A stretch of 38,695 nucleotides of DNA from an uncultured Monoglobus sp. (GTDB lineage: Bacteria; Bacillota; Clostridia; Monoglobales; Monoglobaceae). This document shows, piece by piece, positions 33,680 to 37,298 of this stretch; position 1 is the first letter of the stretch, and each line of letters begins with the position of its first letter. The translations under genes and the position numbers were made by a program. Below the pieces are notes generated by a model. That model saw nothing but the letters and a program-made list of their open reading frames with translations. It had not been told where the DNA came from and did not search any database. The stretch spans positions 1 to 38,695 of the forward strand of contig CANPWW010000017.1 in NCBI GenBank assembly GCA_947585115.1, written 5' to 3'.

Positions 33680-33708
33680 TTGAAATTTGGGCTTTTTTGT
33701 TATATAAT
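33680..33708 (+). promoter_or_regulatory. Promoter of the hisD-like operon
   Basis: TTGAAA at 33680-33685, 17-bp spacer, TATAAT at 33703-33708; followed by the alternating purine-pyrimidine run GTGCGCGTGCGCGC just after the expected start site. Confidence 0.75.
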
Positions 33709-33753: not shown

Positions 33754-35046
33754 ATGAATATTTATAAATTATCCGAAATGACGCCCGAAAAGAAGGACTT
33801 TATCATGAAGCGCGCGGAGCTTGATATCTCCGAGCAGATGAAGGTCGCCAAAGAGGTGTCAGACGATATAAGGCGCCGCGGCGACGAGGCGGTGCTTGAG
33901 TACACCGAGAAGTTTGACCGCGTTAAACTGACCGCCGACCGCATGAAGGTAAAGCCCGAGGAAATAGAGGAAGGCTATAACCGCCTTGACGAAAAGACCC
34001 GCGAGGCGCTGGCCTACGCGATCGGCAATATCCGCGACTTCCACTCAAAGCAGATGCCCGAGGAAATGTGGTTCACCGAGGTGGACAAGGGCCTGATGGT
34101 CGGCGAAAAGACCACGCCCATCGTTGACGTCTGCCTGTATGTGCCCCGCGGCAAGGGCAGTTTTCCGTCTGTTATGTGTATGCTGGCGACTCCGGCAGTC
34201 GTTGCGGAGGTTGAGAAGATCGTGGTCGTGACCCCGCCCAACGAGCAGGGCAACGTTGACGACGCGATACTGGCCGCCGCCAAGATAATCGGCGTTTCCG
34301 AGATATACAAGGTCGGCGGAATACAGGCGGTGGCGGCTGTAGCATACGGTACCGAGACGATACCCAAATGTCACAAGATAATCGGCCCCGGCAACGCCTA
34401 CGCCACAGCGGCAAAGCGCGTGCTGGCAAACTACATAGATTCGGGTCTGCCCGCGGGCCCCAGCGAGTGCATAATCTTGGCCGACGAGCACGCCGATCCC
34501 GAGAAGGTGGCGCTTGACTGGATGATAGAGGCGGAGCACGGCCCCGACTCGGCGGCGCTGCTGGTTACAAGCAGCGAGGAGCTGGCGCATAAGGCGGCGA
34601 AGATAACCGAGCGTCAGCTTGAAAAGATCTCCGACAAGCGCCGCGAGTTTGTGACGACCAACTTCAATACCTACGGCGGAGCGATAATAACCGACAGTCT
34701 CGAGGAGAGCATCGCGTTTGTCAACGAGTACGCGCCCGAGCACATGGAGGTTATGACCGAAAAGCCCTTTGACGTGCTGCCCAAGATAAAGAACGCGGGC
34801 GAAATACTTTTAGGCGACTACACGCCGGTCACGCTGTGCAACTTTGTGCTGGGCCCCAACGCGATACTGCCCACGGGCCAGTTCGCCAAGACCTACTCGA
34901 GCGTGTCTGTTCTGGACTTTCTTAAGCGCTCGTCTGTGGGCTACGCCAGCCGCGAGGGATTTGAGCGCGTCCGCGACTACGCCTACAGGATAGCGACGGC
35001 CGAGGGATTCGACACCCACGGCCTGGCCGTAAAAGAGAGAAAATAA
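33754..35046 (+). CDS. hisD: HisD-family dehydrogenase (histidinol dehydrogenase or related)
   Basis: A 430-residue protein covering the whole HisD fold: DVCLYVPRGKGSFPSVMCM, the nucleotide-site motif KIIGPGNAYATAAKR, LPAGPSECIILADE, EAEHGPDSAALLVT, NEYAPEHMEVM with the catalytic Glu329-His330, and the C-terminal FDTHGLAV. Compared with E. coli HisD as I recall it, two zinc ligands differ: Gln259 is Glu259 here and Asp360 is Asn363, while His262 and His419 are kept (His262, His422). The GDYxxGxNHVLPT motif reads CNFVLGPNAILPT, losing a substrate-contacting His. The canonical YVPGG is YVPRG. HisD relatives acting on other alcohols exist (for example the sulfopropanediol dehydrogenase HpsN), so the substrate is open. 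AAGGAG lies 7 bases before the ATG. First gene of a four-gene run. Confidence 0.8.
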   Translation: MNIYKLSEMTPEKKDFIMKRAELDISEQMKVAKEVSDDIRRRGDEAVLEYTEKFDRVKLTADRMKVKPEEIEEGYNRLDEKTREALAYAIGNIRDFHSKQMPEEMWFTEVDKGLMVGEKTTPIVDVCLYVPRGKGSFPSVMCMLATPAVVAEVEKIVVVTPPNEQGNVDDAILAAAKIIGVSEIYKVGGIQAVAAVAYGTETIPKCHKIIGPGNAYATAAKRVLANYIDSGLPAGPSECIILADEHADPEKVALDWMIEAEHGPDSAALLVTSSEELAHKAAKITERQLEKISDKRREFVTTNFNTYGGAIITDSLEESIAFVNEYAPEHMEVMTEKPFDVLPKIKNAGEILLGDYTPVTLCNFVLGPNAILPTGQFAKTYSSVSVLDFLKRSSVGYASREGFERVRDYAYRIATAEGFDTHGLAVKERK

Positions 35047-35064
35047 ATTATTTGGGGTGATATT

Positions 35065-35685
35065 ATGAAAAATAAAATTACGGTCACCAGAAAATCCACC
35101 GAGACGGCCATAACCGTCAAGATCGAAAAGGGCGAGCTTGTTCCCAACTACAGAAAACGGATAAAGACGCCGCTGCCGTTCCTCAATCACATGATCGAGC
35201 ACATCGCGTGGAGAGCGGGACTGAATATTTCTATCAACATGGATTTTGACGCCTTCGAGCTCAACCACCTTGTCTGCGAGGATGTGGGAATGACCCTCGG
35301 CAAGGCCGTGGGCGAGTTCGTGCGCGCCAACGTGCCCTCGGGCTACGGCTCGGGAACCGGCATGATCGACGAGGCTGTCGCCGACGCGGTGATCTCGTTT
35401 GAGGACCGCTCGCTGTTTAACTTCAAAACCGATGTGAAATACGGCGAGACGGTGGAGAACATGCCCTCGGAAGAGCTGCTGACGTTTCTTGACGGATTCG
35501 CTCAGGGCGCGCGCTGCACATTGTTTGTGGAGCTACGCTGCGGCGAGAACGGGCACCACATCTGGGAGGCGGTCTATCGCGGCGTGGGTATCGCGCTGGG
35601 ACAGGCGCTCTCGGTCGACCCGAACAGAAAGGGCAAAACCTCCGGAGTGGCGGGAGAAGTGATTTATGAAATTTCAGCCGAGTAA
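35065..35685 (+). CDS. hisB: HisB-family dehydratase (imidazoleglycerol-phosphate dehydratase-like)
   Basis: A 206-residue protein that aligns with IGP dehydratase over its length: PFLNHMIEHIA (for FLDHMLxHxA), CEDVGMTLGKAV, MIDEAVADAVISFEDRSLFNF and GENGHHIWEAVYRGVGIALG. Canonical enzymes bind two manganese ions through two HHxxE motifs. The second is intact (His164-His165-x2-Glu168) but the first reads His68-Leu69-Val-Cys-Glu72-Asp73, with one His lost. The C-terminal phosphate-binding PSTKG is replaced by KTSGVAG. So either a divergent HisB or an enzyme for another substrate. The neighbours are a HisD-like dehydrogenase and an overlapping HAD phosphatase (20-base overlap). Confidence 0.78.
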   Translation: MKNKITVTRKSTETAITVKIEKGELVPNYRKRIKTPLPFLNHMIEHIAWRAGLNISINMDFDAFELNHLVCEDVGMTLGKAVGEFVRANVPSGYGSGTGMIDEAVADAVISFEDRSLFNFKTDVKYGETVENMPSEELLTFLDGFAQGARCTLFVELRCGENGHHIWEAVYRGVGIALGQALSVDPNRKGKTSGVAGEVIYEISAE

Positions 35686-36664
35686 TTTTAAAAATATAAT
35701 ATTCGATATGGACGGCGTTATCACAAGCGAGTATATCTATTGGGATACCGCCGCTCTTACTGTGTACGAGCTGCTGCTCGACTATCGGTTTTACGGAAAG
35801 AGCGAGATAGACCGAGAAAGCTGCCTTGAAAACTACGGCGAGCTGAGGCGGCTGATTTTTGATGACGACAAAACTATCCGTGCGGTCAAGGCGCTGGGTG
35901 TCAACACCAACTGGGATCTGGCGTATCTGACATTCTGCGTTTCGCGGTATCTCGAGCCCGAGCTTGAAAGCCTCGATGAGTGGCATTTCCGCTCGGTGCG
36001 CATGTTTATCGAGAACATCGAGGCCAAAGCGCCCGAGGTCTACGGCCTCGCGGGAGAGCTGGCGGCTAACGCCTGCGGAAAGCCGAAGGAGGAATTCGAG
36101 CGCACGACCGGCGAGCTTTGGAAAAACCTGCAGTTCTGCTTTCAGCGCTGGTTCAAGGAAGATGGTCTGTGCAGGCACGAAAAGCCGCTGATCCCGATAG
36201 ACAAGATACACGCGGTACTCGAATATCTCAAAAAATCGGGGCTAAAGCTCGGGGTCGGCACAGGCAGGCCGAGGGACGAGATCATGTATCCGCTGAGGTC
36301 GTGGGACCTGCTCAAGTATTTTGACGATAACATGATAGTCACATACGACGAGGTTTCCGCGGCCGAGCAAGGTCTGAGGCTTACCGCGTCGATCGCCAAG
36401 CCGCACCCGTACGTGTTTTTAAAGGCGGCTCTGGGCCTCGATTATCCCGACAAAAAGATTGTGGGCAGCGCGTACGCCAAAAGCGTCGCCAGAGCCACCG
36501 CGGTAGTGGGCGACGCGCCCAGCGATTTTCTGGCGGCAAGAGTCGCCGAAATGCCGTTCGTCGGGGTGCTGACCGGAGTTGACAGGACTGCTGCCGAGGC
36601 GTATTTCAAGACCAACAAGGCGGACTATATTTTTGAGGATATAACGGGATTTTTGCCCGAATAA
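35666..36664 (+). CDS. HAD-superfamily phosphatase with large helical cap
   Basis: A 332-residue hydrolase. Motif I is FDMDGVITSEY at residues 12-22 (nucleophile Asp, acid/base Asp), motif II GVGTGRP, motif III Lys in SIAKPHPYVF, and motif IV VGDAPSDFLAAR. About 190 residues lie between motifs I and II, giving a long C1-type helical cap that normally sets substrate choice. The start at 35666 is within hisB-like and has GGGAGAAG upstream, so the two are co-translated. In E. coli histidinol phosphatase is fused to HisB, but it belongs to a different HAD subgroup without such a cap; the substrate here is therefore unassigned. Confidence 0.85.
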   Translation: MKFQPSNFKNIIFDMDGVITSEYIYWDTAALTVYELLLDYRFYGKSEIDRESCLENYGELRRLIFDDDKTIRAVKALGVNTNWDLAYLTFCVSRYLEPELESLDEWHFRSVRMFIENIEAKAPEVYGLAGELAANACGKPKEEFERTTGELWKNLQFCFQRWFKEDGLCRHEKPLIPIDKIHAVLEYLKKSGLKLGVGTGRPRDEIMYPLRSWDLLKYFDDNMIVTYDEVSAAEQGLRLTASIAKPHPYVFLKAALGLDYPDKKIVGSAYAKSVARATAVVGDAPSDFLAARVAEMPFVGVLTGVDRTAAEAYFKTNKADYIFEDITGFLPE

Positions 36665-36683
36665 ATTTAAAAGGCGGGATAAT

Positions 36684-37298
36684 ATGAGCGAGACGATCAA
36701 GATCACAACACCGATCACAAAGGATAAGATAAAAGATTTAAAGGCGGGCGACAGCGTGCTGCTCAGCGGCACGATCTACACCGCGCGCGACGCGGCGCAC
36801 AAGAGAATGATCGAAGCCCTCGATCGCGGCGAAAAGCTGCCGATAGAGATAAAAGATCAGACTATATACTACGCGGGCCCCGCTCCGGCCAAGCCGGGCA
36901 GGGTCATCGGCTCCTGCGGCCCCACCACCAGCGGACGCATGGACGCCTACGCCCCGACGCTGATACGCCTGGGGCTCACCGGAATGATAGGCAAGGGCGA
37001 GCGTTCCGACGAGGTCGTGAGTGCTATGACGGAATGCGGCGCGGTGTACTTCGGCGCCATAGGCGGCGCGGGAGCGCTTATCTCCAAGTGCGTGACCTCG
37101 GCCGAGGTCGTGGCATACGACGATCTGGGCGCCGAGGCGATCAGACGCCTGACCGTGGAAAATTTCCCCCTCACCGTGATAATAGACACCAAAGGTAACA
37201 ATTTATATAAGCAAATACCGACAACCGACGAACTGCTTGCCGCTTCGAAAAAAATTATGGAACGCAACAATGCGGTGTATGAGGAACTGGCAAAATGA
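36684..37298 (+). CDS. Fe-S hydro-lyase beta subunit (class I fumarase / L-tartrate dehydratase beta type)
   Basis: A 204-residue swivelling domain of class I fumarases and tartrate dehydratases. Landmarks are LKAGDSVLLSGTIYTARDAAHKRM (conserved LxxGDxVxLxGxIxxxRDxAH), PIEIKDQTIYYAGP, IGSCGPTTSGRMD, GMIGKG, FGAIGGAGAL and VENFPLTVIIDTKGNNLY. This half supplies substrate-binding residues but not the iron-sulfur cluster, which sits in the alpha subunit. No alpha subunit gene is present in the window; it normally lies directly upstream, where there is the HAD gene. AAGGCGGGA precedes the ATG. It is the last gene of the run; no strong terminator is seen. Confidence 0.92.
   Translation: MSETIKITTPITKDKIKDLKAGDSVLLSGTIYTARDAAHKRMIEALDRGEKLPIEIKDQTIYYAGPAPAKPGRVIGSCGPTTSGRMDAYAPTLIRLGLTGMIGKGERSDEVVSAMTECGAVYFGAIGGAGALISKCVTSAEVVAYDDLGAEAIRRLTVENFPLTVIIDTKGNNLYKQIPTTDELLAASKKIMERNNAVYEELAK

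Follow-up and report, generated by a model that had tools for sequence, protein, structure and literature searches.

We analyzed a window of 38,695 nucleotides (the whole stretch of DNA under study, positions 1 to 38,695 of contig CANPWW010000017.1, assembly GCA_947585115.1) from an uncultured Monoglobus sp. of the class Clostridia. The window contains a run of four closely spaced genes, two of them related to the histidine genes hisD and hisB (Table 1). We refer to the products of these two genes and of the phosphatase gene that follows them as HisD', HisB', and HAD', and to their relatives in other genomes as variant, as opposed to canonical, proteins. The original prediction, made from the DNA alone, regarded the run as a possible non-histidine pathway, perhaps acting on a phosphorylated polyol or related alcohol. 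All four genes were recovered as predicted, including the 20 bases shared by the HisB' and HAD' open reading frames (ORFs); the listed ORF of HisD' extends upstream to a TTG at 33697. The prediction had further observed that the run has no other his genes next to it, which is correct for the window; such genes are present elsewhere in the genome.

Table 1. Genes of the four-gene run, with positions in the window
Gene	Product	Coordinates	Strand	Length and start	Pfam match
HisD'	HisD-like dehydrogenase	33754-35046	+	430 aa, ATG start	PF00815, 496 bits
HisB'	HisB-like dehydratase	35065-35685	+	206 aa	PF00475, 102 bits
HAD'	HAD-family phosphatase	35666-36664	+		HAD_2, 49 bits
FumB	Fumarase/tartrate-dehydratase beta-like subunit	36684-37298	+		Fumerase_C, 216 bits

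The order HisD'-HisB'-HAD' is kept in related genomes down to approximately 45% HisB identity. Searching contigs with HisB' returned 31 loci with titles that included Monoglobus, Ruminococcus, Oscillospiraceae, and Eubacteriales, along with metagenome-assembled genomes (MAGs) of Dethiobacter and Syntrophomonadaceae. HisD' was upstream of HisB' in 30 of these loci and HAD' was downstream in 30; the contigs of L060 and L047, the exceptions, terminate on the side concerned. In a larger set of 73 module loci, which are not all independent owing to near-identical relatives and genomes represented twice, we found HisD' in 65, HAD' in 68, FumB in 49, and a fumarase alpha subunit in none. HisD' was not found at eight of the 73 (L060, L296, L298, L307, and L312 to L315) in a search confined to these loci. 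Because the remaining neighbors vary from locus to locus (e.g., dnaJ, purA, and secA, with names read by eye), we consider HisD'-HisB'-HAD' to be the core of the module.

By its overall score, HisD' is a member of the histidinol dehydrogenase family. It passes the HisD equivalog model TIGR00069 of NCBIfam (462.1 bits versus a cutoff of 243.8), and the window protein is 39 to 41% identical to canonical HisD. By alignment, its zinc ligands are E259, H262, N363, and H422, compared to Gln, His, Asp, and His in HisD (residue roles from an excerpt of PMC5585171). The prediction that Glu259 and Asn363 replace two zinc ligands and that Ala370 replaces a substrate His was correct, and these changes are fixed: all three occur in 38 of 38 aligned variant HisD proteins, the window included, versus Q, D, and H in 11 of 11 canonical ones. 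In the alignment, the paired changes of Gln to Glu and Asp to Asn leave the net charge the same. The replacement of His by Ala is less dramatic than originally thought, since in HisD this His contacts histidinol through its backbone carbonyl and not its side chain (PMC5585171, in the excerpted text). Residues E329, H330, H262, H422, and E417 are unchanged in all 38 variants, such that HisD' has the catalytic Glu-His pair as well as the Glu that binds the imidazole of the substrate in the HisD described in the same excerpt.

HisB' is more diverged. The window protein shares 25 to 31% identity with canonical HisB and falls below all 13 NCBIfam HisB cutoffs (best score, 107.1 versus 189 bits), while each of four canonical clostridial HisB controls passes at least two of these models. 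Nevertheless, an AlphaFold2 monomer model built with 56 sequences in the alignment had a pLDDT (predicted local distance difference test) of 93, and all 29 of its PDB matches at E ≤ 0.001 were imidazoleglycerol phosphate dehydratases (IGPDs). In agreement with the prediction, the first HHxxE motif reads HLVCE and the PSTKG phosphate site is missing, with GVAG in place of the STKG loop; the second HHxxE is intact, and Gly93 occupies the R99-equivalent position. Both the loss of the HHxxE His and the change from STKG to GVAG were found in 39 of 39 aligned variant HisB proteins (window included), compared to 13 of 13 canonical proteins that keep both motifs.

HisB' keeps the catalytic Glu (E13 of the window protein). 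We surveyed further functional residues in 56 variant HisB sequences using Arabidopsis thaliana numbering. The equivalents of H47, H73, E77, H169, H170, and E173 are invariant. The H74-equivalent is Leu, Val, or Ile in 56 of 56 sequences; one Mn ligand is thus lost in all variants, which do not have the full set of eight. The window protein additionally has Phe154 at the position of a second metal-ligand His, but this H145-equivalent is still His in 40 of the 56 variants, so the change is not fixed. According to excerpted text of PMC4509728, one Mn of A. thaliana IGPD2 is held by E77, H145, H73, and H170, while the second contacts the ring nitrogen and hydroxyl of the substrate. Ligands of the second Mn are named for Medicago in an excerpt of PMC10978614, and we converted them to H47, H74, H169, and E173. 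When these two sources are combined, the lost H74-equivalent belongs to the substrate-chelating Mn. The phosphate of the substrate is contacted in IGPD2 by R99, K177, R121, S199, and K201, and in one form also by Q51 and H55 (PMC4509728, same excerpt). Among these, R99 and S199 have become Gly in 56 of 56 variants and K201 has become Ala in 55 (Cys once), whereas R121 is kept as Arg and K177 is replaced by Arg in all 56; H55 is replaced by Arg, too. Arginines 50, 115, 172, and 188 of HisB' are invariant. Judged by pairwise identities and fixed differences, the variants of both enzymes stand apart from canonical HisD and HisB.

The phosphatase tracks the variant dehydratase, consistent with the prediction that it belongs with the two his-type enzymes. 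Among 391 genomes of the class, HAD' (E ≤ 1e-15) was present in 53 of the 56 with a variant HisB versus 5 of the 335 others (Fisher P = 9e-56; like the other co-occurrence tests here, computed without regard to relatedness). Its catalytic motifs (F13 D14 D16 G17, T199, K245, G282 D283, and D287) are kept in 36 of 36 sequences. E. coli HisB joins a HAD histidinol phosphatase and an IGPD in one protein, and the bifunctional HisB model was listed in the NCBIfam search. We rejected the idea that HAD' is of the E. coli HisB N-domain type, as that model was not among the 11 that matched HAD' at E ≤ 1e-3.

The distribution of histidine genes links the module to histidine. The window genome has a single PF00815 match and a single PF00475 match, both in the run; a second, canonical hisD or hisB, for which the prediction had suggested a search, was not found. 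The same genome has two strong matches to PF00977 (HisA/HisF), a glutamine amidotransferase gene (hisH by position) together with hisF on one contig, and, on another contig, hisZ-hisG as one 498-aa frame beside hisA-hisIE as one 496-aa frame (L034, G000:C33). In 24 other variant genomes, HisB and HisD were of the variant type only (G046 has two of each). At least one PF00977 match above 200 bits was found in all 24 and at least two in 21 (exceptions, G013, G056, and G076). Among 60 relatives, including the window genome, 30 had a variant HisB, 18 had a canonical HisB, 12 had neither, and none had both, even though both types occur within the window's own family. The same exclusion held in the 391 class genomes, where 56 had a variant HisB (46% identity or more), 236 had a canonical HisB, and 0 had both (E ≤ 1e-6). 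We tested 7 of the 12 relatives that lacked HisB, and 6 of these had neither strong HisA/HisF matches nor HisD. The seventh (G015, 79% complete) had HisA/HisF and a HisD fragment.

Gene order and gene content around the ordinary his genes differed between the two groups. In all 13 canonical loci, hisB is grouped with further his genes, and hisD is among them in 11; of the exceptions, one starts at hisB (L160), and the operon of the other, as far as it was read, includes hisC and hisB and lacks hisD (L159, G050). HisC is directly upstream of HisB in all 8 canonical genomes that were compared (by coordinates, with sequences read for three). The variant operons that we read were devoid of hisD, hisC, and hisB: hisZ-G-H-A-F-IE (L231), hisZ-G-A-F-IE (L229), hisZ-G-A-IE (L232), and three with a HisZ/G-length frame plus hisA-hisIE (L173, L233, and L235). 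At another locus (L050), the module, with FumB, is approximately 2.5 kb upstream of hisZ-G-A-IE. The HisC model TIGR01141 scored above its cutoff in 9 of 28 variant genomes versus 7 of 8 canonical genomes, with absences of HisC, HisJ, and HAD' here defined by family cutoffs or E-value limits in genomes of which some are incomplete. The eighth canonical genome (G050) missed the cutoff by 0.45 bit (276.1 versus 276.55). One variant genome (G063) had a 213-bit match, and the other 18 had nothing above 175 bits (E ≤ 1e-30), giving a contrast between groups of P = 0.012 (Fisher) at the cutoff and P = 0.003 at 213 bits. The sole HisC match of G008, a variant genome in a single contig rated 99% complete, was 146 bits, and the two HisC matches of the window genome scored best with general aminotransferase models, below the cutoffs of those models. 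Likewise, the PHP-type histidinol phosphatase HisJ (TIGR01856) was above its cutoff in only 4 of 28 variant genomes (G056, G061, G063, and G069) versus 8 of 8 canonical genomes (P = 2e-5).

Because there is no other hisD or hisB, the early his genes are kept, variant and canonical HisB exclude each other, HAD' tracks the variant, and the variant operons lack hisD, hisC, and hisB, we conclude from genome content that HisD', HisB', and HAD' very probably form the module for the late steps of histidine biosynthesis in this lineage. The module would take the place of the usual hisD-hisC-hisB genes and of the PHP-type histidinol phosphatase, with ordinary early enzymes (HisZ/G, IE, A, and H/F) leading to imidazoleglycerol phosphate. 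The original view, in which the run belongs to a pathway unrelated to histidine and histidine is made by unrecognized enzymes or not at all, draws on the subthreshold scores of the window HisB' and on the changed functional residues. We rejected it as the principal explanation and consider it highly improbable: the variant never occurs together with a canonical HisB in either genome set, 25 genomes have only variant copies, HisA/HisF persists in all 24 of the other variant genomes, 6 of 7 tested genomes without HisB also lack strong HisA/HisF, and one module sits just ahead of a his operon. The prediction had also argued that linked changes in neighboring enzymes indicate a shared new substrate. 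The two his-type enzymes have indeed changed together, and a new substrate may hold, but inside histidine synthesis.

Our tentative preference, suggested by sequence, is that nature has a second way to reach histidine from imidazoleglycerol phosphate, in which dephosphorylation comes first, the acid is formed before transamination, and imidazolepyruvate is the last intermediate. Imidazoleglycerol differs from histidinol by a hydroxyl in place of the amine at C2 and an extra hydroxyl at C3, and imidazolylglycerate has COO- where imidazoleglycerol phosphate has CH2-O-PO3. HAD' would first remove the phosphate from imidazoleglycerol phosphate. HisD' would then carry out a four-electron oxidation of imidazoleglycerol at its terminal alcohol, with the 2-hydroxyl on the zinc where histidinol places its amine. 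HisB' would dehydrate the resulting imidazolylglycerate to imidazolepyruvate, and the loss of one His on its substrate-chelating Mn could leave a coordination position open to the carboxylate. Finally, a general aromatic- or aspartate-type aminotransferase would convert imidazolepyruvate to histidine; with transamination last, HisC would not be needed. The placement of HisD' before HisB' is assumed, as sequence alone does not fix it. There is precedent for a HisD fold that oxidizes a 2-hydroxy alcohol by four electrons in HpsN (PMC11382572, excerpted text). This route would employ all three of the linked activities and would explain the fixed changes in both HisD and HisB, the phosphate contacts that HisB has given up, and the dispensability of HisC and HisJ.

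Several observations weigh against this route. Nine of the 28 variant genomes (G060 to G062 and G064 to G069) keep a HisC-like protein above the cutoff, and those in the alignment carry the same HisB' and HisD' signatures as the rest. These HisC-like genes lie apart from the his genes (eight flanks read). At a position that is diagnostic for HisC (PMC4703992), Phe was found in 9 of 9 above-cutoff HisC proteins of variant genomes, versus Tyr in 7 of 8 HisC proteins from canonical operons. This hints at aromatic substrates, though it is not decisive because the HisC of one canonical operon (G052) also has Phe. The four invariant arginines of HisB' might still bind a phosphate. We found no HAD' (E ≤ 1e-15) in 3 of the 56 variant genomes (G311, G360, and G394), two of which have FumB and not HAD' downstream of HisB' (L292 and L297, in G360 and G394). 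In two further variant genomes (G056 and G100), HAD' and HisB' are on different contigs. In addition, HAD' homologs exist outside the module, since five nonvariant genomes carry matches. Those of G153 and G223 are 25 to 27% identical and that of G163 (65% complete) is in a genome with no HisB, while those of the canonical-HisB genomes G113 and G234 adjoin a pgsA-like gene (read by eye), which suggests other roles for the HAD' family. The pgsA-adjacent homologs are at 8968-9915 of L319 and 7259-8212 of L320; the G234 match includes two counted stops, yet the locus has a 317-aa open frame. The E. coli HAD-IGPD fusion may likewise serve as a precedent for pairing a HAD phosphatase with HisB in the ordinary order of steps. 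Furthermore, the scans for regulatory elements described below give no link between the module and histidine.

Given the HisC-like proteins of nine variant genomes, the failure to find HAD' in three, the E. coli fusion, and the invariant arginines, we keep the textbook order as a close rival, a serious possibility that we nonetheless doubt. Here, HisB' would form imidazoleacetol phosphate, a general aminotransferase or unlinked HisC would yield histidinol phosphate, HAD' would be a new histidinol-phosphate phosphatase, and HisD' would make histidine, with the metal-site changes reflecting lineage drift or a change of metal. The genome-content evidence for histidine applies equally to this order, the shortage of HisJ in 24 of 28 variant genomes leaves a phosphatase vacancy, and the HisD' changes preserve net charge and involve a His whose side chain does not touch the substrate (PMC5585171, as excerpted). 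However, there is no above-cutoff HisC in 19 of 28 variant genomes, including the single-contig one. Moreover, three phosphate contacts are invariably lost from HisB' despite the C-loop being essential in Pyrococcus furiosus IGPD, where its deletion abolishes activity (PMC4509728, excerpt), and the fixed changes in HisD' have no reason if its substrate is the same. An unlikely compromise is that HAD' acts first on imidazoleglycerol phosphate but the later chemistry is ordinary, with HisB' producing imidazoleacetol, a general aminotransferase producing histidinol, and HisD' producing histidine. While this would account for the phosphate contacts that HisB' has lost and for the absence of HisC and HisJ, HisD' would retain histidinol as its substrate with its fixed changes unexplained, and a neutral HisB' substrate leaves the invariant Arg residues unexplained.

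We looked for shared regulation and found little. Rfam identified no histidine T-box or other histidine element in the window, in 21 module loci, or at L231 (22 loci in all), and we rejected a histidine T-box or known regulator for the module. Scanning for the HisR operator consensus (PMC9413887) gave sites with at most 3 of 14 mismatches in 3 of 62 HisD' upstream regions (4.8%) versus 15 of 1,260 random windows (1.2%). The best site, a single case, had 2 of 14 mismatches and was 101 bases upstream of HisD' (L286). At hisZ starts, two of six canonical loci (L157 and L162) had sites with 1 and 2 mismatches, and two of five variant loci (L231 and L229) had sites with 3. With no clear enrichment overall, this signal was too weak to use. 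A generic palindrome scan found nothing shared.

FumB is real, as predicted, and an orphan half of a hydro-lyase: it passes NF005310 of NCBIfam (295.8 versus 238 bits), a model named just "Fe-S-containing hydro-lyase." However, it is a frequent, dispensable, and loose neighbor of the module and not part of its core (49 of 73 loci). No fumarase alpha gene adjoined the module in any of the 73 loci, and we therefore rejected a fumarase pair in the pathway; the sole fumarase alpha match of the window genome is on another contig (C16), beside a DAHP synthase-like gene (by reading). In one genome (G046), the complete four-gene run is present twice (L168 and L169). Two Dethiobacter MAGs encode a 373-aa protein between an hpf-like gene and HisD' (L059, 7480-8601; L064, 7314-8435), and the L059 copy, the only one checked, had no Pfam match.

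Histidine synthesis is generally presented as a single, nearly universal route. In gut bacteria of the Monoglobus type and in many of their relatives, its last steps appear to be carried out by unusual, linked enzymes instead of the textbook ones, and possibly by an undescribed chemical route. We found no description of such a route in the open-license PMC literature, which leaves out most subscription papers, when searching on late histidine alternatives, imidazolepyruvate, histidine in Monoglobus, and a missing histidinol phosphatase or hisC, hisB, or hisD. Since the literature treats HisB and HisD as potential targets of herbicides or antibiotics (PMC10978614 and PMC5585171, in excerpts), a naturally occurring variant whose metal site is reshaped is informative. 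If our reading is true, a lineage with a rebuilt end of the pathway shows that the order of late steps can change and adds new substrates for HisD- and HisB-fold enzymes. It would also put right automated predictions in which these bacteria may be labeled histidine auxotrophs on account of a HisB below threshold and no HisC above its cutoff.

Each enzyme of the module can be set beside a known structure. The closest solved relative of HAD' by sequence is 1qyi (127.6 bits), a hypothetical protein of Staphylococcus aureus; it shares the HAD motifs and has no assigned function. HisD' has the same fold as the sulfopropanediol dehydrogenase HpsN (8v35 and 8wwe), which acts on a non-histidinol 2-hydroxy substrate (PMC11382572, excerpted text). 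An HpsN-type function was nonetheless rejected, as the GRY-A/S-H motif given in that excerpt is absent from HisD', which has GSFPS at residues 135 to 139 (position by eye). HisD' matches the HpsN structures at 177 to 193 bits versus 301 for the best HisD. With the HisD proteins of E. coli (1k75), Brucella suis (4g07), and Medicago (5vlb), it shares the family, the catalytic Glu-His, two His zinc ligands, and the imidazole-binding Glu, differing in the change of zinc ligands from Gln/Asp to Glu/Asn and of the His367-equivalent to Ala (38 of 38). HisB' differs from the IGPDs of A. thaliana (4mu4) and P. furiosus (5dnl) by the lost Mn ligand, the lost R99, S199, and K201 phosphate contacts, and its scores below all 13 cutoffs, while sharing their fold (TM-score of 0.83 to 4mu4), the catalytic Glu E13, and the second HHxxE motif.

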